This document shows, piece by piece, positions 18,224 through 47,656 of a stretch of DNA of 64,000 nt. How positions within the stretch are numbered: position 1 is the stretch's first letter; each line of letters opens with the position of its first letter. The position numbers and the translations under genes were made by a program. The DNA is from Nitrososphaerota archaeon (GTDB lineage: Archaea > Thermoproteota > Nitrososphaeria > Conexivisphaerales > DTJL01), in NCBI GenBank assembly GCA_021324115.1, contig JAJPJS010000008.1, positions 146,160 through 210,159 of the forward strand. Reading direction: 5' to 3'. The notes under the pieces are model-generated. The model ran no database searches. It was given only the letters and a program-made list of their open reading frames with translations, and was not told the DNA's origin.

Positions 18224-21200
18224 TCATCCGCCGTCAGAGTCTTTCCCTATACCTTCGATGAGCTTGATGTTTTGTTTAGTCTTTAGCCATTCTATGGGGA
18301 CAAGCCCCACGACAAAAACAGTGATCGACAGCATCGCACCATACCCCGCAGAAGTTGCGGTTACAGTAAATGTCTGGCCGGATGCACTTTCAGTTCCGCC
18401 AGCCGAGGGATTTGGGTTTCCATTTTGCGGCTTGGTCGTTGAGTTCTGTCCATAACGGTCAGTACTCGAAGTATTGAAAGTCTGATAATTCCATCCTTGG
18501 GTAGTATTTTGGTAATATTCACTCTGGTTCGTACCCTGGCCGACTATCACCACCCCACCATGACCCGCACCGTCACTACCGGGCGCCCCAAAATCCTGAC
18601 CAAGGCCCGAGGATGTAGAGTTGGACGAACCCTGGCTTTGTCCTGTGCCGGTTCCGCTCCCGGAGCTGTTTGTATTCCCCGGAGTGCCGCTCCCCGTTCC
18701 AGTGCTCGACACATTGCCTCCTGATCCTGAACCCGTTCCTTGTTGGGTTTGAACGACACCCTGCAGGTAAACCGCAGAGATAGAAGTCGGGCCTTCAAGA
18801 AGCACCTGTCCCGAAGAGCCAGCCTGTGATGAATTTATTTGTGCATATTCGAAGTAGTAATACATGGATGAGTTCGATATCGAGGAAATATCGTTCTCGA
18901 ACCCAAATGAAACTGGGGTTCCTTGAAGAAGGCTCATCGAAAGAGGCAGTTGTGTACCCTTCAGTGAAGTTATTGAGCCATTTATATTTAAAATCAGCGT
19001 GGTGTTACCACCATCCGATTCTACATTGGGTGAGGCCGAGAGAGCTAGCTGCACGTCCGAGGGTGGAGGCGGTTGCGAAGGAGGCGGAGACGTCCCGCCA
19101 CCGCTGGTAACTGAGATGGACACCAGATTTGAACCCTTATAATGGATGAAAAGAAGTCCTTGACTGCTCAGGAACCAACCCTCATTATCATTATGAGACC
19201 AAGAGCTGCACGAGCCATCGGAAGCGATGCCTGTACATGTATATCCAATCTGAGTGGAGTTGATAGATTGGGAAGATGAATACTGAGGCAGGGAGCCTGA
19301 GGTGCTTGTGGAGACCGAGCTAACAGAAGTGGCATTGAGAACGACCCACTGGGACGAGTCAGGAGAACTGGATGTAGATATTGTGGCACCTCCGGAACTT
19401 ACCGACATTGATACCACCCTTGCAGTGCTGTACACTGGCGCGAAGTTTCCACCGTCCTTAACTATGTATATCGGAAGCCAGCTGTTAGCCGGAACGTTCG
19501 TTGAAATGTGTATGTCATTTCCTGTGCCGGTGGCAAGAACAGTCATGTCCAGAACATCAATTGCCGTCCAGCCTCCGGTAAGTCCGTAGTAGCTAGCACT
19601 CAAATGGATGTCAAATGGTGAAACTGTGCTTCCGTTGTTGGACAACCAAAGAAGCAATGGTCCTCCGGGAGCACCATCCACGCTGAACTGTAAATATGGA
19701 CTCCAGTTTTGTTGACCGCCGTAACTGCTCTCCCACAGAGCCGGAGCCATGTTCCCCCTACCGGCCGCATACAAAATCGCGTTTATCATGAGGCTAACGA
19801 AGCTGTCTCTGGGCGAGCCGTACATGACGCCAGAAAAGGAGGGTGGATTTCCTGAATAGGATAACCTCGCGTAGGGTTGTTCCAAAAGCACTGCCCTTCC
19901 TGAACCATAGCTGTTTACGGCTATGACAGGGTTAGAGTTCGAGTCCGCTACGAGAATCTGGGGGCTGGCACCTTGCATTGGAGTGATCTGGTACCTTATC
20001 CAGTACGGTGCATAGCTAATTGAGGTATATGGCCTTGTTATGGCGTTGCTCGCTATGATCGACAAGGAACTGGAGGTGGATACAGGGGTGCTTGAAGTCT
20101 GTAGACCAAGCAACACATTCTGGGAGTTGGGCGAACTACCGAAAGATGTATCGACCACCCCTCCCCCATTTTCCACGAAGCTCTGTAGTCTCTGTTCAAA
20201 GCTCGATGTAGGATTAGTGGGGGATCCCACGATTACGTTGAATTGGCTGAACGAACCATACTGCGTAAGATTACTGTCAGAACTTGGTGCCCAGGTGATG
20301 CTCACGGCTGGCGTAAGGAACTCAGGGAAGAATCCATCCTCGGAATCTCCAATCCAGAGAACTCTTACGTAACCACTCGTAGACCCATAATAACTTCCAG
20401 TGAAAACCATTCTGTTCAGAAGGCTTCCAAACGCTCTTGTATACATATTCTGGTAGAGGTCGTTGATGCCGTTGTACTGTGTTCCCCACATCCAATCATT
20501 CATTCCGAGTGGGTTGGTTGGAGCAAGCACGAGATCGGTGAGATACATCGTCCTGAGTTCGAGGGGTGTTAATGAACCCTGATTGTCCTGTGTATTCCCA
20601 AAGCTGTACCACGGAGAGTATGACCCGCTTGTCACTGAAAGGTCTTTTTGAATCTGAGCCATCGCATTATCAGCCCAAAAGGTTGCTGAACCGCCGCAAC
20701 TGGACTGACTTGGGGGGCATCCTATTGGGCCTCCGGCACCTGAATTGGCAAAGAGAAAGTTAGCCATATTAACATTAGGTATAGATTCAACTATTTGGGT
20801 AGGCAGTCCGGTGAAAACCACCAAATGCTTACCAAAAGCAGAAATTAGCTGTGTAAGATTATATTCAAGGTATGCTTGTTCATAGTTGAGAAAGGCGTTC
20901 CAGCCTACTAGTGGATAAACGATAGAACCCCCGGAATAGCTGTTGTCGTCATATGTCATTATCTCATTTGCCAAACTCGCAGTGCTGAAAGATTTGGTTT
21001 TGGCAATGAACATCTGGTATATTTCGGAAAGTACGTTTGTTCCTATGTAATATCCCGATTGGGTAATCTCTCTCCTGAACATAGGGCTGTTTGCGTAGGC
21101 CTGAATCGTCGCATTGTCGAATGGTCGCGCCGTCTTTATCACATTGTCTGTATTGGCATAATAATTTCTGTCTCCTGTGGCACCCTCACCTATACCTATC

Positions 21201-21838
21201 CAACTAGAGTAACTTCCATACCATTTGTACAACTGTAACAGGTCCTGAGACATTTGCTGATACACATATGGGCTGGCTATGCTCCAACCACTGGAAGACG
21301 TGCAACCGGCACAATTAACAAGAGGCGAAACCTCCCCCTGACTGTTTACAGTCTGAGCGCCTGGGTAAGCTTGCAGAAACGCTGTATCCCAACCGGGCGC
21401 AAAGAAATAGCCAAATTGTTTAGTGAAAAATATGTTGTATATCCCATACTGCTGAGAAACTTCGAGCCAGTCAGCAATCCACTGTTGATAACCTCCAAGA
21501 ACATACGTCCCCAGCGAAGAAGAGTTTACCGTACTTCCATCCATCCACCCAATATCTAGGAATACAAAACGGATTCCCATCGGGACAAAATACTCTTCTA
21601 TTACTCGACTCATTGCTGTCTGGGTCATGTACTGGTAACCACCTACCATCTCACTCAGTGTAGACTCGTCAAGAACAACCGGACCACCACTCAAGCCGGT
21701 TGAAAACGTCTGAATGTTGCTTCCTATAACTGGCGCTGCGGTTGCTCGATCAACAGGCAAGACTTCAAGAGAGATGCTGAATGCAGACATGGCGAAGATA
21801 CCTATCAGAAACAAAACAGTAAGTTTCTGCTTGATCAT
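18224..21838 (-). CDS. Giant secreted surface protein, paralogue of the 1443-aa protein, with Gly/Ser/Thr stalk
   Basis: A 1204-residue exported protein converging on the plus-strand operon (18-nt gap). The signal peptide spans residues 1-35 (ending ATAAP). The TIM-barrel-like region has FVFLDIGWMDGS and SWIGIGEG, matching VLLDIGWQ and SWIGLGAG of the plus-strand giant. A flavodoxin/amidotransferase-like module lies around residues 490-600 (VRVLWIGDSEDG, VENGGGVVDTSF), then a beta domain. The shared SLPQY motif near residue 885 precedes a GWFLSSQGLLFIHYKG segment. Residues about 1030-1130 are a low-complexity Gly/Ser/Thr/Asn stalk, likely glycosylated, before a membrane helix near 1170. A strong Shine-Dalgarno sequence (GGGAGG) precedes the ATG. 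Function is inferred as surface glycan handling or a structural layer. Confidence 0.75.
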   Translation of the reverse strand: MIKQKLTVLFLIGIFAMSAFSISLEVLPVDRATAAPVIGSNIQTFSTGLSGGPVVLDESTLSEMVGGYQYMTQTAMSRVIEEYFVPMGIRFVFLDIGWMDGSTVNSSSLGTYVLGGYQQWIADWLEVSQQYGIYNIFFTKQFGYFFAPGWDTAFLQAYPGAQTVNSQGEVSPLVNCAGCTSSSGWSIASPYVYQQMSQDLLQLYKWYGSYSSWIGIGEGATGDRNYYANTDNVIKTARPFDNATIQAYANSPMFRREITQSGYYIGTNVLSEIYQMFIAKTKSFSTASLANEIMTYDDNSYSGGSIVYPLVGWNAFLNYEQAYLEYNLTQLISAFGKHLVVFTGLPTQIVESIPNVNMANFLFANSGAGGPIGCPPSQSSCGGSATFWADNAMAQIQKDLSVTSGSYSPWYSFGNTQDNQGSLTPLELRTMYLTDLVLAPTNPLGMNDWMWGTQYNGINDLYQNMYTRAFGSLLNRMVFTGSYYGSTSGYVRVLWIGDSEDGFFPEFLTPAVSITWAPSSDSNLTQYGSFSQFNVIVGSPTNPTSSFEQRLQSFVENGGGVVDTSFGSSPNSQNVLLGLQTSSTPVSTSSSLSIIASNAITRPYTSISYAPYWIRYQITPMQGASPQILVADSNSNPVIAVNSYGSGRAVLLEQPYARLSYSGNPPSFSGVMYGSPRDSFVSLMINAILYAAGRGNMAPALWESSYGGQQNWSPYLQFSVDGAPGGPLLLWLSNNGSTVSPFDIHLSASYYGLTGGWTAIDVLDMTVLATGTGNDIHISTNVPANSWLPIYIVKDGGNFAPVYSTARVVSMSVSSGGATISTSSSPDSSQWVVLNATSVSSVSTSTSGSLPQYSSSQSINSTQIGYTCTGIASDGSCSSWSHNDNEGWFLSSQGLLFIHYKGSNLVSISVTSGGGTSPPPSQPPPPSDVQLALSASPNVESDGGNTTLILNINGSITSLKGTQLPLSMSLLQGTPVSFGFENDISSISNSSMYYYFEYAQINSSQAGSSGQVLLEGPTSISAVYLQGVVQTQQGTGSGSGGNVSSTGTGSGTPGNTNSSGSGTGTGQSQGSSNSTSSGLGQDFGAPGSDGAGHGGVVIVGQGTNQSEYYQNTTQGWNYQTFNTSSTDRYGQNSTTKPQNGNPNPSAGGTESASGQTFTVTATSAGYGAMLSITVFVVGLVPIEWLKTKQNIKLIEGIGKDSDGG

Positions 21839-22094: not shown

Positions 22095-22715
22095 ATGGGC
22101 GATCCAGATATTATAATCGAAAGATTGAAACAGATAGGGGGGAACGTAGCATATGACATAGGTGGGAATGTCGGAGAGATCGCTAAGATTCTATCCCACA
22201 GTTTTGAACTGGTTTATTCGTTTGAACCAGCACAGGAATCATTTGTAAAACTATACAACCTATCTAAGGGAATACAAAACATAATCCCTGTACCCTTGGC
22301 CATCTCAGAAAGCCAAGGCGAAATCGAACTTGACGTTTCATCAAAATCTATAAGGAAAGGGCAGCTGGTGTCGGGAGATTATTTGGAGAGCTGGGGAGAA
22401 AAAATTGGCACGCGTAAAGTAATGTCCACCACGATTGACGAATTCATTAGAAGTCATCCACCACCTGATTTTGTGAAGATAGATGTGGAAGGGCACGAAA
22501 TGAAAGTAATAAGCGGTGGCTTCGAGTGCATCAGGGTATTGCGTCCGAGGCTGTTTATAGAGGTTCACTCTAATTATCTCGGAGATTCGATCAGGAAAGC
22601 TTTGGCTTCCTTTTATGACTTCGAAATAATATATCATACCGCTTATTCACCCGAGTCTCCTCGCAAGAGAAACCATTACTTTATGTTCTCACGTTCAAAA
22701 GGCCAAACTTTGTAA
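22095..22715 (+). CDS. FkbM-family SAM-dependent methyltransferase
   Basis: A 206-residue class I methyltransferase of the FkbM type. The SAM-binding motif is YDIGGNVGEIAK (residues 20-31), the acidic ribose-binding loop is YSFEPAQESF, and the family signature KIDVEGHEMKVISGG lies near residues 128-142. FkbM enzymes O-methylate sugars or polyketides; here a sugar hydroxyl of the surface glycan is the likely target. The gene is followed after 2 nt by a GT4 gene, so the two form a small operon. A TGTTAAAT box near 22,057 could be its promoter. A second FkbM gene lies at 30,216. Confidence 0.9.
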   Translation: MGDPDIIIERLKQIGGNVAYDIGGNVGEIAKILSHSFELVYSFEPAQESFVKLYNLSKGIQNIIPVPLAISESQGEIELDVSSKSIRKGQLVSGDYLESWGEKIGTRKVMSTTIDEFIRSHPPPDFVKIDVEGHEMKVISGGFECIRVLRPRLFIEVHSNYLGDSIRKALASFYDFEIIYHTAYSPESPRKRNHYFMFSRSKGQTL

Positions 22716-22717
22716 AT

Positions 22718-23824
22718 TTGCGTGAGATTTTTTTGAACCTACTCATCATGACACTTGATCCACCAAGCGGTGTAGGTGGAATAGAAGGGAGAGCCATAGC
22801 CTACAAAAGGGAATTGTCTGCGTTAGGTCATTCTGTCACGCTCGTGTCCATATCCCGTCTTGAAGAGAAAAGGCAAACCTTCCCTGAAGACTTCAGATTG
22901 TCATCTAGTCTTCCTTCGTTCTGTACTACAATAATCAAGATTGTTAGCATCATAAAAAGGAGGAAAGTGGAGAGTGTATTTCTTCTAGGTGGGAGCGATA
23001 CGGCGATTGGCATAATCACATTATCTTTTGCCCGAGTTTTACGCCTTAAAACGGCCTCGCTCTTCTACGGTAAGGACATACTTCAATCGAGGAAGAGCAA
23101 AATCAAATCAGTGTTGCATTTGATTTCGCTTTATCTGACAGGCTGCATTGCTACCAATTCAAGGTTTACATCGTATTTATTGAATGCGAAGGTAAAGAAA
23201 ACAAAAAAGATTGTACTGCTCTATCCAGGAATTAATGTCGACGAAAAGGTGCCTCGAACACAGAACATACAAGATAACGATCAAACCATTCTTTTTGTTG
23301 GCAGGCTGGTCAGAAGAAAGGGTCTTGAATACTTGATTCGGGCAATGGTGCCTCTAAAATCAGAATTTCCTCATATCAAATTGGTGGTTGTGGGTGACGG
23401 ACCCGAATTTGGCAGGATGTCAGAGCTTGTGAATGTTTTGGGATTAAAAGGCAATGTGCGTTTTGCCGGGGAATTACGTGGTGACGACCTCTCCAGACAA
23501 TATGAGGAATCAGTAATATTTTCTATGCCTTCTATAACTTTATCAGACGATGTGGAAGGATTCGGCACTGTCTTCTTAGAAGCTGGATTGCATGGTTTAC
23601 CATCTGTTTCCACATTCAGTGGAGGCATTCCCGAAGCCGTGATAGATGGTACTACTGGAATTCTTGTCAAGGAAAGAGACCCGGCACAGCTGGCGGAGGC
23701 CATTCGATTACTTCTGCTAAGCCGGCAAATGCGTCAGCGGATGGGCGAGGAAGGTCGCAACAGAGTATTGAATCAATTCACGTGGCGCGCATCAGCTAAT
23801 AGACTATTGACGTGTTTTGAGTAA
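22718..23824 (+). CDS. Glycosyltransferase family 4 (GT-B fold)
   Basis: A 368-residue GT4 enzyme. It has PPSGVGGIEGRAIA at the N terminus, ILFVGRLVRRKGLEYLI in the linker, VVGDGPEFGRM, and the E-x7-E site VEGFGTVFLEAGLHGLP followed by FSGGIPEAV. It shares with the GT4 at 5228 the order of these motifs and the Asp-rich loop before the donor site, suggesting the two are the closest pair in the window. The start TTG at 22,718 lies 2 nt after the methyltransferase stop; an ATG at 22,748 is a possible alternative but would remove the first beta strand. It is probably co-transcribed with the FkbM gene. Confidence 0.9.
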   Translation: MREIFLNLLIMTLDPPSGVGGIEGRAIAYKRELSALGHSVTLVSISRLEEKRQTFPEDFRLSSSLPSFCTTIIKIVSIIKRRKVESVFLLGGSDTAIGIITLSFARVLRLKTASLFYGKDILQSRKSKIKSVLHLISLYLTGCIATNSRFTSYLLNAKVKKTKKIVLLYPGINVDEKVPRTQNIQDNDQTILFVGRLVRRKGLEYLIRAMVPLKSEFPHIKLVVVGDGPEFGRMSELVNVLGLKGNVRFAGELRGDDLSRQYEESVIFSMPSITLSDDVEGFGTVFLEAGLHGLPSVSTFSGGIPEAVIDGTTGILVKERDPAQLAEAIRLLLLSRQMRQRMGEEGRNRVLNQFTWRASANRLLTCFE

Positions 23825-23938: not shown

Positions 23939-24754
23939 ATGAAAAGATATCTGCTTGCGGTAGTGGCTTTGTTGGGTATATACGCAATATCGTGGACGCC
24001 CGCTTTAGCTACAACTTACTATGGTCCAAGCTTCAGCATGCCCACTGCCATACCGCCTGGTTCCACCATTAACATAGTCTTGTCGACAGCATCTGGGAGT
24101 GCGGTGGTGGCATTACCCCAGGGCTCCTCCACCCCATGCTCAGGAACGTGCAGCTATCCTCAGCAACCATGGACGTCTCCCAGTGCGTGCTTTGTGTCGG
24201 TCCATGAAGTCACGGTAACGGACCCCAATGGTAACCAGTTTATGCTTGGTTCCAGCACAACCTCCGGACTGTACTGGCCGAGTGCCTTCGGCGGAAGCGG
24301 TTCGGGTACTTCTGTTCCCCCACAAGCTCCTGCCTTAAACTACACGGTTGGCGATTCATTTACCATCCCCTTCGGCACCGGTCCTGAGGGTTACACATTC
24401 ACGAGCGTGCTGGGTTCTCCGTATAACACCAATCCTGAGGGTCCATATTACTGGTGGGTCTCAGTAGTCGGCGCAGGTAACCCTAACGGTTACACGGTAG
24501 GAGCGAGGCTTGATCAGACAAGCATAAACCCAACTATGACGCATGGTACGTATACAGTCGATGTGGAAGGCGTAGTAGCTTGTCCAGGCAGCCAATCCAG
24601 CACCTTCCAGAACGTACTGTTCTTCGACGCTGGCACGATTGTAACAACACCCGAATTCGGAGCTGGAATGGCAGCTGCAACGGCGGTAGCCCTCGTTGGT
24701 CTGCTGGTTCTGCGGAAGAGAATGCCAACCCTCGTTAGTAACCCATCAGCTTAG
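23939..24754 (+). CDS. Secreted protein with PEFG-CTERM sorting signal
   Basis: A 271-residue exported protein with a clean signal peptide (residues 1-25, cleavage after ALA). The mature part is Gly/Ser/Pro/Tyr-rich, probably beta-structured, with several Cys (two in CSGTC) that may form disulfides. The C terminus has the three-part sorting signal: TTPEFG near residue 238, a hydrophobic helix, then RKR. This is the PEFG-CTERM pattern known from Thaumarchaeota. The archaeosortase gene lies 178 nt downstream on the same strand, so it is a likely substrate that is cut at the motif and re-anchored on the cell surface. The mature domain is not recognised. Confidence 0.85.
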   Translation: MKRYLLAVVALLGIYAISWTPALATTYYGPSFSMPTAIPPGSTINIVLSTASGSAVVALPQGSSTPCSGTCSYPQQPWTSPSACFVSVHEVTVTDPNGNQFMLGSSTTSGLYWPSAFGGSGSGTSVPPQAPALNYTVGDSFTIPFGTGPEGYTFTSVLGSPYNTNPEGPYYWWVSVVGAGNPNGYTVGARLDQTSINPTMTHGTYTVDVEGVVACPGSQSSTFQNVLFFDAGTIVTTPEFGAGMAAATAVALVGLLVLRKRMPTLVSNPSA

Positions 24755-24899
24755 ACCGTCTCAGGGACGCTATATTATTTATCTTGTATGCAACTCAAAG
24801 GGAGCTCTATTCATGAAACGCATACTTGGGTCCAACCGAGTATTAATAGAATAGAATATGTTCATTTGGGCTGATAGTTACTTATCATGACCACGTGAA

Positions 24900-24906
24900 T
24901 TTATAC
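24900..24906 (+). promoter_or_regulatory. TATA box of the archaeosortase gene
   Basis: TTTATAC centred 30 nt before the ATG at 24,933 predicts transcription start at about 24,929, leaving almost no leader. The archaeosortase therefore has its own promoter. Confidence 0.5.
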
Positions 24907-24932
24907 ATGATTTATTAATGGGAAAAGAATAG

Positions 24933-25808
24933 ATGACCAATATGAGACTTACGAGACTTACTCATCCCCAACTGTTTCTAGTTTCAGTCTTGGCAAGCAT
25001 ACTTTTGCCTGCGCTTATTCCGAGGGTTGGACTAGACTATCCTTATCTGTTCATCTTCATGATTACTATAGCCACGTGGTTTGCCCTCAAGTGGGACGCA
25101 GTAAAGACCTTAGCTACAAGGGGCGCTACGCTTGAAGTTGGTGCTGGGATAGGAGTGATCTCATTAGACTATCTCCAGAATTTCATCTTTGGGTCACGAT
25201 TTGGCTTAATAGATATGCTGGTCACATTTTCTGCAGTGGTTGTCGCCTTCTTTGGAATCAGAGCCTTCAAGCTGTTCTGGGTACCTGCGACGTATGGTAT
25301 TGTCCTGCTTCTGGGTTATCAACTTGAGAACATCATTCCTAATTTCGTCACGCTTCAAGACTGGCTTGCAAGCGTAATGGTCTCTGCCCTGACTCTCTTC
25401 GGCGTCACGGCTACTACATTAGGGCATTTGGTTGCTATACAAACCAGTTCAGGGCCAATGATACTTGACGTTCAGAGTGACTGCACGGGGATTCAGGGGG
25501 TTCTTGCATTTGGAATGCTTTCGACCATGACCATACTTGACATAAAAAAGAGTTGGAAACGTTTGATTCCCCTATTCATAATCGGCTTCGTAGGGGTTTT
25601 CTTGATCAACATCCTTAGATTATTCGTGGTTTTCCTGACCTTCGAATTCGCCGGCATCGCACTCGGAACTACAATGCATCTGTTTGTTGGGTACATTCTT
25701 TTCGTGGCTTGGGTGATGGCGTTTTGGTGGATGTCTTTCAAATATATGTCCCCCTCTGTAGGTCCAAACACAATGGCACGAAAAAATCTCTTCGGTAGTG
25801 GCATATAA
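24933..25808 (+). CDS. Archaeosortase/exosortase family transpeptidase-like membrane protein
   Basis: A 291-residue polytopic membrane protein with about eight helices. The exosortase/archaeosortase catalytic triad is intact: Cys184 in SDCTGIQG, Arg229 in NILRLFVVF and His249 in TTMHLFVGY, in the expected order and spacing and each at the outer end of a helix. The family cleaves C-terminal sorting signals of exported proteins and is thought to re-attach them to a membrane lipid. Three proteins with PEF or PEFG C-terminal signals lie within 8 kb (23,939, 26,077, 31,194) and are the natural substrates. Its position inside glycan-synthesis genes parallels bacterial exosortases in exopolysaccharide loci. 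The subclass is uncertain: the signals match both PEF-CTERM and PEFG-CTERM types. Confidence 0.92.
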   Translation: MTNMRLTRLTHPQLFLVSVLASILLPALIPRVGLDYPYLFIFMITIATWFALKWDAVKTLATRGATLEVGAGIGVISLDYLQNFIFGSRFGLIDMLVTFSAVVVAFFGIRAFKLFWVPATYGIVLLLGYQLENIIPNFVTLQDWLASVMVSALTLFGVTATTLGHLVAIQTSSGPMILDVQSDCTGIQGVLAFGMLSTMTILDIKKSWKRLIPLFIIGFVGVFLINILRLFVVFLTFEFAGIALGTTMHLFVGYILFVAWVMAFWWMSFKYMSPSVGPNTMARKNLFGSGI

Positions 25809-26044
25809 TCGCACCTCTGCACATCACCCTGAACCATGTCTTTATGATTAGACCTCTTCGCTTCCAAGATTTCAAGCCGAACTTTCACAGTGTATGGACG
25901 TTACGGCTCAAATCATGTACAAACGCACGTCCTGCTATGGTCTACGAACATTTGTAGAATATAAAACAGGCGCGTATTCAATACATCCTCAGGAAGAAAG
26001 ATACAGATTGCAATTCTAACGACATGATGTTCAGCTTCTGAATC

Positions 26045-26052
26045 ATTAAAAA
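26045..26052 (+). promoter_or_regulatory. TATA box deciding the start of the PEF-CTERM protein at 26,077
   Basis: ATTAAAAA is centred 29 nt before the ATG at 26,077. The predicted transcript start (about 26,074) lies downstream of the in-frame TTG at 26,056, so the ATG is the real start and the mRNA is essentially leaderless. Confidence 0.55.
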
Positions 26053-26076
26053 GGTTTGTTGGGCAGGATTTCTAAC

Positions 26077-26610
26077 ATGATTCATCTCCGATATTTATCA
26101 GCTTTGATGCTTGCAATTGGGTCACTCGTTGCTGGCTTCTCCATCACTCCTGTTCTTGCATGCCACTGTGTCAGCCCTCCAGGGATACAGGGTCCGTCAT
26201 CCGCTGTACTTGTCTCCGGTCAGTCCACCATGCTGAATTACACGTTTTCATATGCTGACTTTCCGTCTGGAACCAACACAGTGACGATTCATATTACATC
26301 TCCTCCTTCTGGGTGGAGCTGGACGATCACCAAGAGTACATTTACGGTGAATGGTGGCTCAGGAGTCATAAAATTCACCGTAGTGGTGACACCTCCCTCA
26401 TCTGCCGGAGCAAATGCTCAGTTCACTCTCACTGAAACAAGCTCAGCGAGTGGCTTTAGCCCGTGTCCTCCATTCGTCGTCAAACTCAGTACAACCTCAC
26501 AAAGTACCGGAGTGCCAGAGTTTCCGTTACCGATGGCGCTGGTGGGTGCACTGGGCTTCGCCCTCGTGATGATGCAGAGAAAGCTTGCAGGAGCTAGGCT
26601 CAACAACTGA
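26077..26610 (+). CDS. Small secreted protein with PEF-CTERM sorting signal
   Basis: A 177-residue exported protein. The signal peptide ends at about residue 29 (TPVLA) and the mature chain opens with CHC. The middle is a Thr/Ser-rich beta domain (immunoglobulin-like in feel: SGQSTMLNYTFSY, VIKFTVVVTPPSS). The C terminus shows GVPEFPLPMALVGALGF then QRK, a tripartite PEF-CTERM signal. It lies just after the archaeosortase gene with its own promoter and is a likely substrate. No specific function is recognised for the mature domain. Confidence 0.85.
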   Translation: MIHLRYLSALMLAIGSLVAGFSITPVLACHCVSPPGIQGPSSAVLVSGQSTMLNYTFSYADFPSGTNTVTIHITSPPSGWSWTITKSTFTVNGGSGVIKFTVVVTPPSSAGANAQFTLTETSSASGFSPCPPFVVKLSTTSQSTGVPEFPLPMALVGALGFALVMMQRKLAGARLNN

Positions 26611-26696
26611 TTGATCTCTAAGAAAGATACTCTGCTTCATTAACGTGTATCAGAAGGTACAATTACTTCGTTTTTCTTAAGCGATGCGGTTATAAA

Positions 26697-28034
26697 TTGA
26701 ACTCGAAAGTTTCTGTTATCGGACTCGGTTACGTCGGGTTATCAACCGCCGTATGTTTTGCCAGCCGAAGGATAAAAACAATTGGAGTAGAAGTAAACAA
26801 GGAGAAACTTTCGACTATACGTTCAGGAATTGTCCCATTTCATGAAAGGGGATTGGATGAAATGTTAAGACAGACTCTAGATGACGGAACATTTGATTGC
26901 ACCGATGATATCTCAAAGGCGGTTCGGAATACAGAAATTACGATTATCGCTGTGGGGACTCCCAGCAGACCCGACGGAGGGATAGAACTAGACTTTGTCA
27001 GAGAAGCATGCGCCCAGGTTGCTCTAGCTATGAAGGCAAAGAGAAGGAACCACATAGTGGTAATCAAGAGCACGGTGGTACCTGGCACTACCGAGGAAAT
27101 GATCAAACGTGAACTCGAATCGAGATCAGGTATGAAAGCAGTAAGAGATTTTGGATTGGCAGTAAACCCCGAATTTCTCCGTGAGGGGACCGCCGTCTAT
27201 GACACATTTCATCCAGATGCTTTGATATTGGGCTGCTCGGACGGACGTACGCTGAGTACATTGAAGAAACTCTTTCAAAAATTCTATGGTAAACTGCCTG
27301 TCACAATAGAGACTACGCCCACAAATGCCGAACTAATCAAATATTCCGTGAATACGTTCAGGGCCGTCCAGCTAAGCTTCATCAACACTCTTGCCAATCT
27401 TGCATCGGCTTTGCCAAATTCTGAAGTTGGAGAAGTCATCAGGGGGCTCGCCACGATCACAAAGCTGGATAATCGGTACCTACGCCCTGGCCCTGGTTTT
27501 GGAGGAAGCTGCCTTCCAAAGGACACAAGGGCGATGATAGCACACATGAGGAATAAGGGGGTGGACCCTGACATCCTGGAATCTGCACTCAAGATAAACA
27601 TGAAACAATCCAAAGTAATTGTGAATACTGCAGAGAGCCTGCTCAAGACTCTGAAGGGAAGGAAAATCGCCGTGCTCGGACTTTCCTTCAAGGGTAATAC
27701 TGATGATATCAGAGAATCACCCTCACTGAATATTGTGAGGGAATTGCTACTTAGGGGCGCAGCCGTTTCGGCCTATGACCCGGCAGCCGGTGAAAACGCC
27801 AAGAATATTCTTGGCGATTCTATCAGCCTTTCAAATGATGCCAAAGATTGTCTACATGAGGCCGATTGCTGTATCATAGCCACAGAATGGACTGAGTTTT
27901 CAAAGCTCAAACCAGAAGACTTTGCATCCATTATGAAGGAACCAGTAATAGTCGATGCAAGGCGTATTTTCGACCCGGAAAAATTTGGCAAAGGCGGAGT
28001 CATCTACCGGAGGATAGGTACCTCGATTGAGTGA
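26697..28034 (+). CDS. UDP-glucose 6-dehydrogenase family protein
   Basis: A 445-residue NAD-dependent nucleotide-sugar dehydrogenase. It has the N-terminal dinucleotide loop VIGLGYVGLSTAVCFA (residues 7-22), the VGTPSRPDG loop, STVVPGTT, NPEFLREG, and the catalytic cysteine in GFGGSCLPKD (near residue 265), followed by the UDP-binding C-terminal domain with LGLSFKGNTDDIRESPS. It performs two successive NAD-dependent oxidations, turning UDP-glucose (or GDP-mannose) into a uronic acid donor. The start codon is TTG at 26,697. It is followed, in GTGA overlap, by the membrane protein at 28,031 and then by a second dehydrogenase, an operon supplying acidic sugars. Confidence 0.92.
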   Translation: MNSKVSVIGLGYVGLSTAVCFASRRIKTIGVEVNKEKLSTIRSGIVPFHERGLDEMLRQTLDDGTFDCTDDISKAVRNTEITIIAVGTPSRPDGGIELDFVREACAQVALAMKAKRRNHIVVIKSTVVPGTTEEMIKRELESRSGMKAVRDFGLAVNPEFLREGTAVYDTFHPDALILGCSDGRTLSTLKKLFQKFYGKLPVTIETTPTNAELIKYSVNTFRAVQLSFINTLANLASALPNSEVGEVIRGLATITKLDNRYLRPGPGFGGSCLPKDTRAMIAHMRNKGVDPDILESALKINMKQSKVIVNTAESLLKTLKGRKIAVLGLSFKGNTDDIRESPSLNIVRELLLRGAAVSAYDPAAGENAKNILGDSISLSNDAKDCLHEADCCIIATEWTEFSKLKPEDFASIMKEPVIVDARRIFDPEKFGKGGVIYRRIGTSIE

Positions 28035-28768
28035 TACTCATGAAAAGAATCACCAGCACTTTGATACCAGCCCTGAAGGAGTCCATGCTAGTCATCGGCG
28101 CTTACGTCCTTATAGGAATCGCTTTTACCATAGTGCCTCTGCTGTACAGCGCTTCTTCGGTCAGGATAGGAGTTCTGAGACCGATAGGTACGATACCTCC
28201 ACATGAATTTATACTCTTGTTGGGTGCTCTGGCCATTTTTGCCTTATCTTCCCTAGTTTACAGAAAATTTGATTTTGCATTTCTGCTTCTGCCGGTTACC
28301 TTCGTCATACTGCTCGATTTCGATCATTTGCCTTCGTTCTTTGGAATACCTCAACCAATTAGGCCAGCTCACTCCTTATTCTTTCTGCTTGCACTTTTGT
28401 TAATTCTTCGATTTGGATTGAAGAGACAGTTATATGTCGAACTATTTGCTATTTCTTCATTTTTTATGCATATTACAATTGACAACGGCGTATTTCCCCT
28501 TCTTTCCCCCATCTCATTCAAGTACTACAGTCTTGGAGATATCAGGCCGTATCTATTTATAATTGCACTTGCCTTTGCGGCGTTTGCAGGTTATTCGAGA
28601 AGACACTCATTTAGAAAGAGGCTCGGGAAGGTAGATACAAGCATTTTTCAAGAGGGAAAGCCAGTGATGGGTGAACAAAGGCAAAGTTATAGATCATCGG
28701 CAAGGAAGTTATCAAAAACCGCATCGAATCCATCAGTCAGCACTTATATGTGCTATCTTGGTGGTTGA
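28031..28768 (+). CDS. Membrane-bound metal-dependent hydrolase-like protein (YdjM/DUF457-like)
   Basis: A 245-residue protein with about six membrane helices and a charged C-terminal tail. The motif order LDFDHLPSF, RPAHSLFF and HITIDNG matches the Asp-x-Asp-His, His-Ser and His-x3-Asp pattern of YdjM/DUF457-type membrane proteins (predicted membrane-bound metal hydrolases). It sits between two nucleotide-sugar dehydrogenase genes in an apparent operon and overlaps the first by GTGA (an ATG at 28,040 is also possible). I infer a role on a lipid-linked intermediate or membrane phospholipid, but the family reaction is unproven. Confidence 0.65.
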   Translation: MILMKRITSTLIPALKESMLVIGAYVLIGIAFTIVPLLYSASSVRIGVLRPIGTIPPHEFILLLGALAIFALSSLVYRKFDFAFLLLPVTFVILLDFDHLPSFFGIPQPIRPAHSLFFLLALLLILRFGLKRQLYVELFAISSFFMHITIDNGVFPLLSPISFKYYSLGDIRPYLFIIALAFAAFAGYSRRHSFRKRLGKVDTSIFQEGKPVMGEQRQSYRSSARKLSKTASNPSVSTYMCYLGG

Positions 28769-28771
28769 ACG

Positions 28772-30172
28772 TTGATTTCCGGTAAGAGTTCCTTATGCAT
28801 ATCGGCTGAAGAAGTGAAAACTCTTCTCCGAGAAGGGGAGATATGTATAACTGTCGTAGGACTCGGAAGGATAGGCCTTCCGACAGCCGCTTCATTTGCA
28901 AACGCAGGCGCCAAAGTTTACGGTGTGGATATCAACGAATCTGTGGTTGGTACCATCAACAGTGGAGAAAACAGGTTTGTAGATGAACCGGGTCTGGAAG
29001 ACATGCTCCGGAAAGTAGTGAAGGAAGGAAAGCTTCATGCCACTCTCAGAGCAGAACCGGTTATATCCAAATCAGACTTCTTGATTTTGAGCGTGCCCAC
29101 CCCTGTGCTCCCCAGTAAGACACCAGACTATTCTGCGATAAGGACCGTTTCACATCAAGTGGGCGAGTACATGAAGAGTGGTACGACAGTGATAGTAGAA
29201 AGCACGGTAGGGCCGGGCACGGTCGAAAATTTGATTGCGCCCATACTAGAAGCGGAATCGGGAATGAAAGTCGATGCTGATTTTGGTTTGGCAAGCGCAC
29301 CAGAAAGGTCGGACCCCGGAAACATCATGAAGAATCTGACTTCTGTTCCGAGAGTCGTCGGAGCCTCCAATTCCCGTACGAGAGATATAGTTGCTGCGCT
29401 TTATGAGGCAACTTTTGGTGTCGAAGTTGTAAAGGTTTCCTCTCCTCGGACCGCTAACGCCGTGAAGCTTACTGAAAACCTATTCAGGGATGTGAACATC
29501 GCTCTTGCCAACGAATTCGCATTGCTTTATGAAAAGCTGGGAATAGACGTCATCGAAGTTATCAAGGCTTGTTCTACGAAGTACAATTTTATGCCTCATT
29601 ATCCCGGAGCAGGCGTTGGTGGCCCTTGCCTTCCCGCGAATCCTTACTACTTGATAGAGGAAGCGCTGAAGGTTGGTGACATACCCTATCTGATAAGGAT
29701 GGCAAGAGAAATCAATGACAGAATGCCAGAACACATAGTAGAATTAACCATGGAAGCTCTTAACGAAGTTGCTAAAACGGTAAGAGGTTCAAAGATTGGT
29801 GTGCTGGGAATATCGTACAAACCCAATGTAAAGGATGTCCAACTGTCCCCTATAGTATCGATTTGTAGCCGATTGCAGGAAATGGGCGCCATATTGAAAA
29901 TATATGACCCGCTTTTCCCAGCCGAGAGAGCGGCGGGATTTGATGTATTGGATTCTGTAGAGAAAGCAGTCTCGAACTCCGATTGTATACTCTTTGGAGT
30001 TGCGCATGAAAAATTCAAGCATCTGGATCTGGGTTATCTTAGGTCGCTGTCAGGTAACAGGTCGGCTGTGGTGGACGCGTGTCACCTGATCGACCCGCAG
30101 GAAGCGATGAAACTTGGATTCGCATACCGGGGCGTTGGAAGACCCAGATCTAGAAATCTCGAAGTCTTTTGA
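28772..30172 (+). CDS. UDP-N-acetyl-D-mannosamine/glucosamine dehydrogenase-type protein
   Basis: A 466-residue nucleotide-sugar dehydrogenase. VVGLGRIGLPTAASFANAG is the NAD-binding loop (about residues 28-46), VPTPVLPSKTPDYS and ESTVGPGTVE follow, and the catalytic loop is GVGGPCLPANPYYL (Cys near residue 285). The PYYL ending and SAPERSDPG are typical of the WecC/TviB class, which oxidises UDP-ManNAc or UDP-GlcNAc to the uronate, and not of plain UDP-glucose dehydrogenase. It has an N-terminal extension of about 25 residues. It starts at TTG, 3 nt after the YdjM-like gene. Together with the enzyme at 26,697 it predicts acidic amino-sugar residues in the surface glycan. Confidence 0.88.
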   Translation: MISGKSSLCISAEEVKTLLREGEICITVVGLGRIGLPTAASFANAGAKVYGVDINESVVGTINSGENRFVDEPGLEDMLRKVVKEGKLHATLRAEPVISKSDFLILSVPTPVLPSKTPDYSAIRTVSHQVGEYMKSGTTVIVESTVGPGTVENLIAPILEAESGMKVDADFGLASAPERSDPGNIMKNLTSVPRVVGASNSRTRDIVAALYEATFGVEVVKVSSPRTANAVKLTENLFRDVNIALANEFALLYEKLGIDVIEVIKACSTKYNFMPHYPGAGVGGPCLPANPYYLIEEALKVGDIPYLIRMAREINDRMPEHIVELTMEALNEVAKTVRGSKIGVLGISYKPNVKDVQLSPIVSICSRLQEMGAILKIYDPLFPAERAAGFDVLDSVEKAVSNSDCILFGVAHEKFKHLDLGYLRSLSGNRSAVVDACHLIDPQEAMKLGFAYRGVGRPRSRNLEVF

Positions 30173-30215
30173 GTCCTTATATCTGCCAGGCGATTCCTTG
30201 AGGGCGAATTGACTA

Positions 30216-30902
30216 ATGGATCAAGAAAGCGCCCTCGCTCAAATTATGAATAAACTACTCGAACCAGTAAAACCATATTATCTCCCGTTCCTTTGGAAGC
30301 CAAAACCGAAACCGGTGTGTCAGAATGTCTGCAGCCAGTTTGTCAACTCTTCTGACGTTGTTGTCGAAGTCGGAGCCAACTTTGGTGGTTTGACGATCAT
30401 GCTTTCTGATCTAGCTTCGCATGTTTATTCGTTTGAGCCGAATCCGAAAACATTTAGGTATCTAAAGCGTTTTGTTCATGGGCGCAAGAATGTCAATTTG
30501 TTCAAGTTGGCTGCAACCGACAGAATAGGTGAAGAACGCCTAGATACAGATGACACTAGCTTATCCGAGATGTCAACCATTGTTGGTGCAAGGCCGGGTA
30601 TTCAATTGACAAAACGTTTGTCGGTCAGAACTTGCACGCTGGATAGCGTTTCCTTTCACCCTGTTCCGACATGTATTGTACTTGATTGCGAAGGAGCCGA
30701 AGTGGCAGTTCTTAGAGGCGCGCAAAGATTACTGAACAACCATGTCTGCAAGGTGTTATCGGAAATTCACACCTTGCCAAGCGGAGAAACTACAGAACAG
30801 GCGCTTAGAACCCTCTTACTGCAAAATGGGTTCATAGTATCAAAACAGTACTACTGGCTCGTGGCTCTAAAGGATCCATCCGTAAAGAATCCCGCCCTGT
30901 AA
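30216..30902 (+). CDS. FkbM-family SAM-dependent methyltransferase
   Basis: A 228-residue class I methyltransferase. VVEVGANFGGLTIMLS (SAM loop), YSFEPNPKTFRYLKR (acidic loop) and CIVLDCEGAEVAVLRGA (FkbM signature) are in order. The N terminus carries a Pro/Lys-rich segment (residues 17-34) not seen in the other FkbM protein. A CTTATATC box near 30,181 predicts a near-leaderless mRNA starting by the ATG at 30,216, separating it from the dehydrogenase operon. The probable role is O-methylation of a glycan residue. Confidence 0.88.
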   Translation: MDQESALAQIMNKLLEPVKPYYLPFLWKPKPKPVCQNVCSQFVNSSDVVVEVGANFGGLTIMLSDLASHVYSFEPNPKTFRYLKRFVHGRKNVNLFKLAATDRIGEERLDTDDTSLSEMSTIVGARPGIQLTKRLSVRTCTLDSVSFHPVPTCIVLDCEGAEVAVLRGAQRLLNNHVCKVLSEIHTLPSGETTEQALRTLLLQNGFIVSKQYYWLVALKDPSVKNPAL

Positions 30903-31159
30903 CGGTTAATTCTCACGCTGGATGAGTCCGCAGACACATATTTCATCATGGTATCCGTTATCATTCAATTAATTATGAGTATAGGGAATAGCTAAAGAAT
31001 TGTTTTAAACGTATGGATAAGCTAATGTATCCCAGTCTAAAATGGCTCATATGACCATTAAACTGAATTAATTGTGCTGGCTCTAACCTCTAAAGCAATA
31101 TCAAAAGTTCTATTGTTGTGAATCTTACGTTCACCCTCGAGGATTCAGGCTCCATAATC

Positions 31160-31167
31160 TATATATT
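31160..31167 (+). promoter_or_regulatory. TATA box of the PEF-CTERM gene at 31,194
   Basis: TATATATT is centred about 30 nt before the ATG at 31,194; the predicted start near 31,190 lies just after the alternative TTG at 31,188. The 30,903-31,187 gap holds nothing else I can support. Confidence 0.5.
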
Positions 31168-31193
31168 CTCAACTCGAAAATTTTGATTTGAAT

Positions 31194-31838
31194 ATGAATC
31201 GAAGGTATATGCTAGTCGGACTAGCTTTTGCGGCTATTCTGATATCTAGTCCCGTCGCATTCGCGCTGAGTAATGGAACTTACCTCCTAAAGAACGCTAA
31301 TGTAAGCGATCTAGCCGGTATCGTGATAACAGTAACTGCAACACACGATGGTAGTGGCAATCTGATTCTTAAGTTTCAACTCACTTCAAATCCAGTTGTT
31401 AATACGCCACTCGGGATTGACAAAATTGGTTGGAATGGTTCAGAAAATGGGGCCGTTGTAACTGACCCCGGTTGCACTGCACCCCATGGTTGGAGTTATG
31501 ATGGATCGGGGACCGAGGATGGATTTGGCTCATTCACTTCAACGATGGACTGCCCAGCAGGAGACGGCGGTATCAGTTCACCGATCATAATCACATTTGC
31601 CGGTAACCCTACAATAACTAATAATACTCACGAAGCGATGTTTGTCGTACACATCAGGTACAATGATTGTTCCGGTTTTGTGTCTGACGGAATCACGTCA
31701 GTGCAAACCGAAACAGGCTGTACTGCGAAACCCCCTACGCCTGTCCCTGAATTTCCATTGGGGGGAATTCTTGCTGTCGCTGTGCTGGCCCCGATGGTTC
31801 TTCTACTGAGAAAGGCTGCTAAAGTGCAATTGAATTAG
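31194..31838 (+). CDS. Small secreted protein with PEF-CTERM sorting signal
   Basis: A 214-residue exported protein with a signal peptide (cleavage near AFA, residue 26). The mature part is beta-rich with four Cys (DPGCTAP, MDCPAG, YNDCSG, ETGCTA), possibly two disulfides. The end reads PTPVPEFPLGGILAVAVL, followed by a hydrophobic helix and RKAAK, a full PEF-CTERM signal. It is the third such protein near the archaeosortase. The mature domain is not recognised. An inverted repeat followed by TTT lies 28 nt after the stop. Confidence 0.85.
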   Translation: MNRRYMLVGLAFAAILISSPVAFALSNGTYLLKNANVSDLAGIVITVTATHDGSGNLILKFQLTSNPVVNTPLGIDKIGWNGSENGAVVTDPGCTAPHGWSYDGSGTEDGFGSFTSTMDCPAGDGGISSPIIITFAGNPTITNNTHEAMFVVHIRYNDCSGFVSDGITSVQTETGCTAKPPTPVPEFPLGGILAVAVLAPMVLLLRKAAKVQLN

Positions 31839-33229: not shown

Positions 33230-33288
33230 CCCCACAGAATACACGGGAAACTTCATATATCCCACAGTATACACATATTTCTGTGGGG
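33230..33288. promoter_or_regulatory. Promoter of the ribbon-helix-helix gene flanked by three CCCACAG-type sites
   Basis: CCCACAGAATACAC (33,231-33,244) and CCCACAGTATACAC (33,261-33,274) are direct repeats differing at one base and spaced exactly 30 bp. A third, inverted copy CTGTGGGG (33,281-33,288) covers the GTG start codon. The TATA element CATATAT (33,254-33,260) lies between the first two, centred 26 nt before the GTG. Binding by the encoded protein would occlude TBP and the start, so autoregulation is likely. Confidence 0.65.
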
Positions 33289-33756
33289 CGCAACATCACC
33301 GTTTACCTTCCCGAAGATATAATCGGGCTAATGGGCAAATTCCCAGAGGTAAATTGGTCCGAGGTATGCAGGAAGGCGATCCTAGATTATGTCAATACGC
33401 GCACCACGCCCAACCTCGAAGCTACGGTAGCGAGACTCAAGAGTGAACGTACAGACGAATATGGTAGGGGGTATAAACTTGGACTTGACCTCGCAAGGGA
33501 ACTTCCCTACAGGGAACTGGCGAAGATCGTCGAGGGATGGGAGGAAAAGAACAGCGAATTAATGAGATTCGAGGCTGAAAGCAGTGATATACCTCAACCA
33601 ATCTCAAGAGCGCAGGAATACAGACGTTACTGGAGAAACGTAATTCCGGTTCCGTACAGGGACGGAGGCAAGGATTTCATAGAGGGATTTGCTCAATCCT
33701 TGACAGAGGTATATAAGGAAACAGCCGGTGAAACGCTCCGCAATCTGATGATCTGA
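33283..33756 (+). CDS. Ribbon-helix-helix (CopG/MetJ-like) DNA-binding protein
   Basis: A 157-residue protein. Residues 1-40 form a ribbon-helix-helix fold: the strand NITVYLPED, then a helix (IIGLMGKFP) and VNWSEVCRKAILDYVN. Residues 45-157 are a charged helical domain with KLGLDLARELPYREL and RYWRNVIPVPYRDGGKDFIEGF, unrecognised and longer than in simple antitoxins. The start is GTG at 33,283, exactly one box-A distance after a TATA element (leaderless). No toxin-like partner is adjacent, so I favour a transcriptional regulator, probably acting on the repeat array in its own promoter and perhaps on the divergent zinc-ribbon gene. Confidence 0.78.
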   Translation: MGRNITVYLPEDIIGLMGKFPEVNWSEVCRKAILDYVNTRTTPNLEATVARLKSERTDEYGRGYKLGLDLARELPYRELAKIVEGWEEKNSELMRFEAESSDIPQPISRAQEYRRYWRNVIPVPYRDGGKDFIEGFAQSLTEVYKETAGETLRNLMI

Positions 33757-33905
33757 AACATTTATAGCATCTATACTATCATTTGAACTGCGGAGTACCG
33801 TACCATTACAGTGGTATGAGGTAACTCAGCTCATCAGATGCCGAAATAAATTCTCGTTCATAATGGCATATAATCTTCGCAGACACGTTTTACGGCGTGA
33901 ACAAG

Positions 33906-33941
33906 TATAATAAATTGAGGCTAAAAAGGACAATCGTCCTT
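33906..33941 (+). promoter_or_regulatory. Promoter and inverted repeat over the start codon of the winged-helix gene
   Basis: A TATAATAA element at 33,906-33,913 lies about 30 nt before the TTG at 33,940. AAGGAC-AATC-GTCCTT (33,926-33,941) is a perfect 6-bp inverted repeat covering the predicted transcript start and the first two bases of the start codon, a good position for an autoregulatory operator. Confidence 0.5.
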
Positions 33942-34266
33942 GGAAGCAGGAGATCGTAAAAACAGAAGAAGAAGTAGAGAGGAAGTCCTTGGTGAAATTA
34001 TCAGGGCGGCATCCAAGGGAACGATAAAGACCAGAATCATGTATAAAGCTGCGCTTAACTCAAGGCAATTGAAAAGATACCTTCAGATGTTGATGAAGCA
34101 AGGATTGATAAGTTACAATGAGGAATCAAAACTGTATACTGCAACAGAAACGGGCAACCTCTATCTTGAAAGGCTGGATGAATTTCTCAGAGCAAAGAAT
34201 CAGCTATTCAATCAATCGAAAGCTCTCAAAGATCTTCTAAAGCCCGGCTCAGAACAATCAGTCTAA
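33940..34266 (+). CDS. Winged-helix DNA-binding protein (HTH_45-like)
   Basis: A 108-residue archaeal winged-helix protein. Helix-turn-helix residues about 20-65 (IIRAASKGTIKTRIMYKAAL, then SRQLKRYLQMLMKQGLI), a beta wing (LYTATETGNLYLE) and a C-terminal amphipathic helix for dimerisation (residues 75-102) match the HTH_45 class. The N terminus is very basic (KNRRRSRE). It is a paralogue of the protein on the minus strand at 34,992. Target genes are unknown; the inverted repeat over its own start suggests autoregulation. Confidence 0.8.
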   Translation: MEAGDRKNRRRSREEVLGEIIRAASKGTIKTRIMYKAALNSRQLKRYLQMLMKQGLISYNEESKLYTATETGNLYLERLDEFLRAKNQLFNQSKALKDLLKPGSEQSV

Positions 34267-34362
34267 AAGACACGGCGAATACTCAAGCATAGATTGTCAG
34301 GCGCCGTAAAAAAGCAATTAGAAATCTCTGGCATATTCTACTGTCGAGCGTGAGAAGTGCTG

Positions 34363-34947
34363 ATGGCAAGTATGCAGACTCCTACCGGTTTCGTCGTACT
34401 TATTGTTTCAATCATAACCTTGATTGTCGTGCATGATCTGTCCCGTTGGGGAACCAAGAAATCAACCAGGCTGTCTTCAAGGGTTACGGAAGTGAAAACT
34501 ATGGATTTCCTTGCCTACCTGACAGAGGCTCTTTCTGGTGGCCAGGCCACGACTCTTCTTGATGAACTCATGACCTACTACACCTCTTTCAGAGCTTCTG
34601 AAGGCGAAAGGGGGGCAGAAACAGTTTCCGCCGTCCTGAGTAGACTCGAACCGATCAAGGGCGAGTTGCGCTCATTGCTGATAAGGGCCAGGGATATTGA
34701 CAGGGCAAGGGTACTGGCCGAGAAGGTGAAGACAGACTTCAGAATATCACTCTCGCTTAGCTGGTTGTTCGCCTCAACCGGGGCGGTTCTTGTAACATTG
34801 AGCTTCATAGACCCAAATACAGAATCGTTTTTGATAGTGTTTGGAGCATCGATACTCGATTTCTGCATGACGCTATCCTTTATATACAGGGCTATGAAAA
34901 ACATAAACAGAATGGACAGAGACGCATCAACAAGAGCTGAAGACTAG
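34363..34947 (+). CDS. Small membrane protein of unknown function
   Basis: A 194-residue protein with one N-terminal helix (TGFVVLIVSIITLIVV), a soluble helical middle (residues 35-125) rich in Ala/Leu/Glu/Arg, and a pair of C-terminal membrane helices (LSLSWLFASTGAVLVTLSF and FLIVFGASILDFCMTLSF). It lies between two related winged-helix genes, one upstream on the same strand and one convergent. The ATG at 34,363 is chosen; a GTG at 34,357 is two codons upstream. I do not recognise the family. The layout could fit a membrane sensor controlled by, or controlling, the neighbours, but this is only positional. Confidence 0.7.
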   Translation: MASMQTPTGFVVLIVSIITLIVVHDLSRWGTKKSTRLSSRVTEVKTMDFLAYLTEALSGGQATTLLDELMTYYTSFRASEGERGAETVSAVLSRLEPIKGELRSLLIRARDIDRARVLAEKVKTDFRISLSLSWLFASTGAVLVTLSFIDPNTESFLIVFGASILDFCMTLSFIYRAMKNINRMDRDASTRAED

Positions 34948-34991
34948 ACGGCCGCCAACTGAAGCGAGCTCAGCTCGGTTTGGTTTGTAAT

Positions 34992-35318
34992 CTATCTAGA
35001 CTTCAAGCTGAGGACACTTTCGTATTCCTTGTCCAGCTCACTTCTCACCTGGTTGACCATGGTTCTGAGTTCTCCATACTGCTTGAGTTTCGAGAGAAGT
35101 CTGCTTCCCTTCTCTGTCAGGTAGTATAGGTCGCCTTCATACATAAGAAACCCTGAATCAACCAGCATCTTCGTATACTTGACAAGTAACTGGTAACTCA
35201 GATTGGTTGCATACATCAGTCTGGTCTTCTTTATTCCTGAGTTTGATGCTTCCAGCACATTCATTATTATTTCGGTCCTAAGTCTCTTTCTCATTTCATT
35301 TTTTCTCCTCGGAGACAT
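34992..35318 (-). CDS. Winged-helix DNA-binding protein (HTH_45-like)
   Basis: A protein of about 108 residues, paralogous to the one at 33,940: IIMNVLEASNSGIKKTRLMY, then LSYQLLVKYTKMLVDSGFL, a wing with YYLTEKGSRLL, and a C-terminal helix (KQYGELRTMVNQVRSEL) likely for dimerisation. The start is uncertain. The ATG at 35,318 is used, but an ATG seven residues later is preceded by an AGGAG Shine-Dalgarno sequence at suitable spacing. The open frame extends further upstream with a Pro/Trp-rich stretch unlikely to be translated. It is convergent with the membrane protein gene. Confidence 0.78.
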   Translation of the reverse strand: MSPRRKNEMRKRLRTEIIMNVLEASNSGIKKTRLMYATNLSYQLLVKYTKMLVDSGFLMYEGDLYYLTEKGSRLLSKLKQYGELRTMVNQVRSELDKEYESVLSLKSR

Positions 35319-35369
35319 TGGGGAGTTCCAGAGCATGACGGGCCACGGCGGGTGTGGGGAGCATCCCAT

Positions 35370-47628: not shown

Positions 47629-47656
47629 AAACTCCTACATTTTGGACAAGTTAACC

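Follow-up and report, generated by a model that had tools for sequence, protein, structure and literature searches.

Sequence evidence for a small archaeosortase subfamily with conserved siting among glycan genes in a Nitrososphaerota archaeon and its relatives

Bacterial exosortases are located in exopolysaccharide loci, and the attachment product of exosortases and archaeosortases, as well as the reason for this exopolysaccharide siting, is still unsettled. Here we describe a stretch of 64,000 nucleotides (hereafter the window; contig JAJPJS010000008.1, positions 146,160 to 210,159) from a Nitrososphaerota archaeon of the class Nitrososphaeria, in which an archaeosortase gene and three genes for exported proteins with PEF-type C-terminal tails lie within 7.9 kb in the midst of glycan genes. 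Genes are named by their start positions in the window, the archaeosortase being 24933 and the three tailed proteins 23939, 26056, and 31188. The source is a metagenome-assembled genome (MAG) of 2.14 Mb in 27 contigs, 95% complete. Judged by curated models, a tree, and gene neighborhoods, the main result is a small archaeosortase subfamily whose location in glycan loci is conserved and specific to the clade, not the mixture of PEF and PEFG tails under one enzyme that a preliminary description of the window had singled out as unusual.

The 24933 enzyme belongs to the same enzyme family as the bacterial exosortases of the PEP-CTERM system, EpsH and XrtA, with 40.7 bits against TIGR02602, 64.5 bits against PF09721 (cut-off 25.7), and 44.4 bits against TIGR04178 (cut-off 23). 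Cys184, Arg229, and His249, named as the catalytic residues in the preliminary description, are invariant throughout its orthologues. By these scores and residues the gene is a genuine archaeosortase; it looks active and is predicted to cleave tripartite tails. The likeness to the bacterial systems extends to the tripartite tails themselves and to the siting amid glycosyltransferases and nucleotide-sugar enzymes. However, the present system is archaeal, its motif is PEF instead of PEP, the XrtA model gives only 33 bits against a cut-off of 208, and no bacterial exopolysaccharide accessory genes were recognised at the archaeal locus.

The enzyme also differs from the named archaeal subfamilies. 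Archaeosortase A of Haloferax, which processes PGF-CTERM proteins at the PGF motif and attaches them to lipid (PMC11980579, PMC7157517), is alike in catalytic logic and in its tripartite substrate, as far as the literature goes, but its model gave no match to the 24933 enzyme at E<=1, and the glycan siting of the latter is a further difference. In the case of archaeosortase C, the PEF motif is shared and the corresponding tail model, TIGR03024, is the best curated one for the 31188 tail, but membership was rejected at 26.3 of 100 bits (TIGR03762), and the tails score 15.6 or 10.9 of 23 bits or do not match. Thaumarchaeosortase, the partner of PEFG-CTERM (TIGR04297/TIGR04296), comes from the same archaeal class, and PEFG letters occur in two of the present tails; membership was nevertheless rejected at 20.1 of 250 bits and a separate clade, and thaumarchaeosortases carry Ser at the position of the catalytic Cys. 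This Cys-to-Ser exchange was seen in 22 of 60 rows, covering the thaumarchaeosortase clade (L181:456-1415, L182, L183, L184, L185, L187, and L188) and two related groups, with examples in neighboring clades at L126, L140, L192, and L095-L101. Arg and His are kept; the variants read FWPSAGVHS or GEPSSG, and several rows are without any Cys.

To place the enzyme, the curated subfamily models were used alongside a tree whose 59 archaeosortase rows came from the class and from named relatives. The 24933 enzyme and eight orthologues form a clade of their own with a support of 100/99. L196 and L197, two secondary paralogues located beside the f14 pair, also fall in it. Thaumarchaeosortases group elsewhere, and one representative, the control L181, reaches 505 bits with the thaumarchaeosortase model. 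Clade members are present in 6 of 400 sampled genomes of the class, from three families; the sampled genus of the source genome held no further genome. A scan of named genomes with the single enzyme sequence gave no match, and an alignment-based scan gave six loci; among the named relatives are Candidatus Gagatemarchaeum stordalenia and Nitrososphaerales MAGs. On this placement, the enzyme and its relatives are a small, new, and unnamed subfamily. Among solved structures, no sequence match was found to the enzyme or to the membrane protein 28031 described below, as single sequence or as profile, and a fold search with the predicted enzyme model returned nothing below E 0.9. Since this search found no match and both AlphaFold models are weak (pLDDT 66 for the enzyme and 53 for 28031), neither model is used as support.

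Two other kinds of archaeosortase relative were seen. Second archaeosortase-like genes in the f14 genomes (L196:574-1380 and L197:1665-2456) have lost the Cys and the His, reading Phe-Arg-Arg, and their products are probably non-catalytic; they adjoin an AMP-binding-type gene with a homologue in the window at 47642-49009. In Gagatemarchaeum, the intact archaeosortase gene has as its divergent neighbor a fragment (L118:882-1217) that codes for 112 aa of a second archaeosortase, with 37% identity to the 24933 enzyme.

The GT4, FkbM, and nucleotide-sugar dehydrogenase genes noticed earlier around the enzyme and its substrates are the five at 22095, 22718, 26697, 28772, and 30216 (Table 1). Glycan genes lie near the enzyme at all eight relative loci, with a gene order that is partly rearranged. 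At L124, from the same family, the order is GT4, substrate, enzyme, small membrane gene, dehydrogenase, 28031, and 28772; L147 repeats it without the substrate, and L144 reads GT4, substrate, enzyme, and dehydrogenase. GT4, 28772, and 28031 flank the enzyme at L148 and L149, a GT4 is near it at L145 and L146, and L128 reads 28031, 28772, a pyruvyltransferase-like gene, substrate, and enzyme. Other archaeosortases of the class, taken at 12 control loci, are often beside PEF substrates too. Neighboring open reading frames resembling the glycan genes of the window numbered 23 of 66 at the eight clade loci compared with 1 of 99 at the control loci (Fisher p 8e-10, for loci of one clade that are not independent). 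Because a comparison by window-like genes favors the window clade, it was repeated with Pfam, which gave 8 NDP-sugar dehydrogenases and 7 GT4 among 46 neighbor proteins at the clade loci and 0 and 1, respectively, among 75 at the control loci. Counted by locus, glycan linkage was found at 8/8 relative loci and 1/12 control loci. The suggested likeness to bacterial exosortase siting is thus borne out, the linkage being kept in the orthologues and, that one locus apart, absent from the other archaeosortases of the class. Downstream of the cluster, small DNA-binding-like and membrane genes occupy 33283-35369, and the same block stands beside the same cluster in genome G004 (L124:1285-3197) with its order kept and 38-81% identity.

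The membrane protein 28031 accompanies the enzyme. Six homologues have in common the motifs LD-x-DH-[LI]-P, PIRPAHS, and H-x3-D, reminiscent of the YdjM family; from these motifs a metal-dependent hydrolase may be predicted. The protein itself scores 19.3 bits with the YdjM model PF04307, below the gathering cut-off of 29, and four of its six relatives match at E<=1, the best at 1.5e-5. Close homologues (>170 bits) are present in 6/6 sampled genomes with the enzyme and in 2/394 others (hypergeometric 5e-12, kinship ignored). Together with the clade-specific glycan neighbors, this co-occurrence points to a new archaeosortase subfamily that, like the bacterial exosortase, is coupled to glycan loci.

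The three exported proteins had been given the right coordinates and frames, and each contains a single hydrophobic helix at each end, the C-terminal one followed by basic residues. The whole MAG was scanned for PEF with G, P, A, or R as the next residue; of the 96 places matched, each followed to its stop codon, five proved to be true PEF tails: the three in the window and two elsewhere, C9:98639 (PEFPT) and C27:221975 (PEFGA), the latter on a beta-helix protein. Two are of the PEFG and three of the PEFP type. A tail profile picked out the identical five (E of 2e-9 or lower), the next match being at 1.3; since it had been trained on them, the search was repeated with tails from other genomes only. 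This outside-only profile recovered four of the five at E 1e-6 to 5e-4, including those in the window (5e-6, 6e-5, and 5e-4), with the C9 tail at only 2.7 and the best non-tail match in the genome at 0.57. Three of five tails within 8 kb of the sole enzyme correspond to p ~ 4e-6 under random placement, and at orthologous loci PEF substrates likewise adjoin the enzyme. Over 13 tails, P and F are invariant and E nearly so, and the following helix is not conserved.

Some further features of the secreted proteins were noted. The signal peptide of 26056 ends in VLAC, which makes a lipid attached to an N-terminal cysteine conceivable. A secreted phosphoesterase (PF04185) at 35683-37149 ends in VPSF, a helix, and RRR, and a Gagatemarchaeum protein (L127:9554-12214) in VPSF, a helix, and R; these ends are possibly a PxF-type tail variant. 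Each gene of the enzyme and its substrates had also been credited with its own near-leaderless promoter. This is borne out only in part: a TATA-like box precedes 23939, 24933, and 31188 at a distance of 30-37 nt, yet just one of the three, that of 31188, has a rare score (reached at 0.7% of random positions, compared with ~11% for the other boxes), and there is none at the listed TTG start of 26056.

Table 1. Genes of the archaeosortase cluster, in window coordinates.
Feature	Coordinates	Strand	Remarks
FkbM-family methyltransferase	22095..22715	+	TIGR01444 76.6 bits
GT4 glycosyltransferase	22718..23824	+	PF00534 139 bits; orthologue near enzyme at 7/8 other loci
Exported protein, PEF tail (PEFGAG)	23939..24754	+	tail TTPEFGAGMAAATAVALVGLLVLRKR; full-length homologue at L144
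Archaeosortase	24933..25808	+	291 aa; Cys184-Arg229-His249; unnamed subfamily (PF09721, TIGR04178, tree clade)
Exported protein, PEF tail (PEFPL)	26056..26610	+	tail TGVPEFPLPMALVGALGFALVMMQRK; likely true start ATG 26077; homologue at L124
Nucleotide-sugar (UDP-glucose-type) dehydrogenase	26697..28034	+	TIGR03026 441 bits; orthologue at L124, L144, L147
YdjM-like membrane protein	28031..28768	+	motifs LDxDHLP, IRPAHS, HxxxD; likely start ATG 28040; paired with 28772
Second nucleotide-sugar dehydrogenase (UDP-ManNAc-dehydrogenase-like)	28772..30172	+	TIGR03026 401 bits; 54-65% identity at orthologous loci
FkbM-family methyltransferase	30216..30902	+	TIGR01444 77.3 bits
Exported protein, PEF tail (PEFPL)	31188..31838	+	tail TPVPEFPLGGILAVAVLAPMVLLLRK; likely true start ATG 31194

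We consider it probable that this single archaeosortase serves the whole five-protein PEF secretome and is tied to the neighboring glycan production. The substrates would be exported via the N-terminal signal peptide and retained by the C-terminal helix; the enzyme Cys, with His and Arg, would then attack at or directly past P-[E/Q]-F, near the outer membrane face, freeing the helix and transferring the newly made C terminus onto an acceptor in the envelope. The enzyme would not read the residue that follows PEF. The GT4, the two nucleotide-sugar dehydrogenases, and 28031 may produce or alter an acidic glycan of the cell surface, and its synthesis would be tied to anchoring as in the bacterial exosortase/exopolysaccharide loci. 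The acceptor is possibly the product of these local genes. A more specific version, in which a uronic-acid glycan or glycolipid, built by the GT4 and the two dehydrogenases, is attached to the C terminus while 28031 releases or remodels the lipid carrier, appears doubtful to us.

The strongest competitor, to which we give a little less than an even chance, is a plain archaeosortase that joins the clipped substrates to an ordinary archaeal lipid, with the glycan genes adjacent only via the clustering of surface genes. It has the precedent of lipid attachment by ArtA (PMC11980579, PMC7157517), and two observations that tell against our reading also favor it. The C9 and C27 substrates, two of the five, lie away from the locus. 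N-glycosylation sequons are few in the three window substrates (1, 1, and 4), and the sequon-rich secreted proteins of the window have no PEF; the genome encodes AglB (STT3), but with this distribution N-glycosylation offers no obvious link between glycan and substrate. Our reading is limited further in that the lineages showing the glycan linkage are few, the sample covering three families. In G302 and G370 the 28031-28772 pair has no enzyme in its vicinity, and in G348 the 28031 homologue is likewise paired with the 28772 dehydrogenase at a distance from the enzyme, so 28031 may belong to the glycan arm and not act on the enzyme. Finally, a second archaeosortase could be missing, since the MAG is 95% complete and in 27 contigs. 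What speaks for coupling to glycan production over simple clustering is that same-class archaeosortases, also beside PEF substrates, are without glycan neighbors and that the linkage is kept over three families despite the rearranged gene order. The sequon-rich proteins (7944-12272, 14288-18205, and 18224-21838; 1204-1443 aa with 19-39 sequons and a C-terminal helix) are likely surface glycoproteins with another anchor.

The incompleteness of the assembly also leaves some room for two specificities, in which PEFG and PEF(P) tails need separate enzymes and the second one is missing; the relative G004 indeed has three archaeosortases. We regard this as very improbable. A second archaeosortase matching PEFG, which would have spoken for it, was not found: the 24933 enzyme is the sole PF09721 match in the 95%-complete MAG, even at E 10, and one enzyme serving all five tails would read both PEFG and PEFP. 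The known PEFG-linked thaumarchaeosortase belongs to a distant clade. Moreover, the residue after PEF varies near the orthologous enzymes, with PEFA at L124, PEFG and PEFS at L127, PEFP at L128, PEFG and PEFP together at L145, and PQFG at L144, while PEFN (L194) and PQF (L193) stand near the 28031/28772 partner genes in other contigs. It also differs within one substrate family, P in 26056 and A in its L124 homologue (36% identity), and the motif itself shifts from PEFG in 23939 to PQFG in its full-length L144 homologue (39% identity); both homologues adjoin an orthologous enzyme. None of the MAG tails reaches the cut-off of the curated PEFG-CTERM (TIGR04296, 25 bits) or PEF-CTERM (TIGR03024, 23 bits) models. 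The C27 tail gives 15.2 bits with the former, and the 31188 and C9 tails give 15.6 and 10.9 bits with the latter, which the 26056 tail does not match; the 23939 tail, earlier read as PEFG-CTERM, matches neither. PEFG as a separate substrate class was rejected for this clade, and by these comparisons mixed PEF/PEFG service is ordinary for it. Slightly less credible still is the proposal that the tailed proteins are simply held in the membrane by their C-terminal helices, with an incidental PEF, and that the enzyme has other targets. The secreted proteins 7944, 14288, and 18224 do have C-terminal helices without PEF, but enzyme and tails co-cluster here and at orthologous loci, and it is the motif, not the helix, that is conserved.

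For this clade, then, the annotated split between PEF and PEFG does not mark a boundary of specificity, and current tail models miss its substrates. The glycan-sited archaeal clade and its same-class relatives without such siting form a natural comparison for the attachment product and for the siting of bacterial exosortases, and the locus offers a minimal gene set for it: the enzyme, one GT4, two dehydrogenases, and one YdjM-like protein, plus short substrates.

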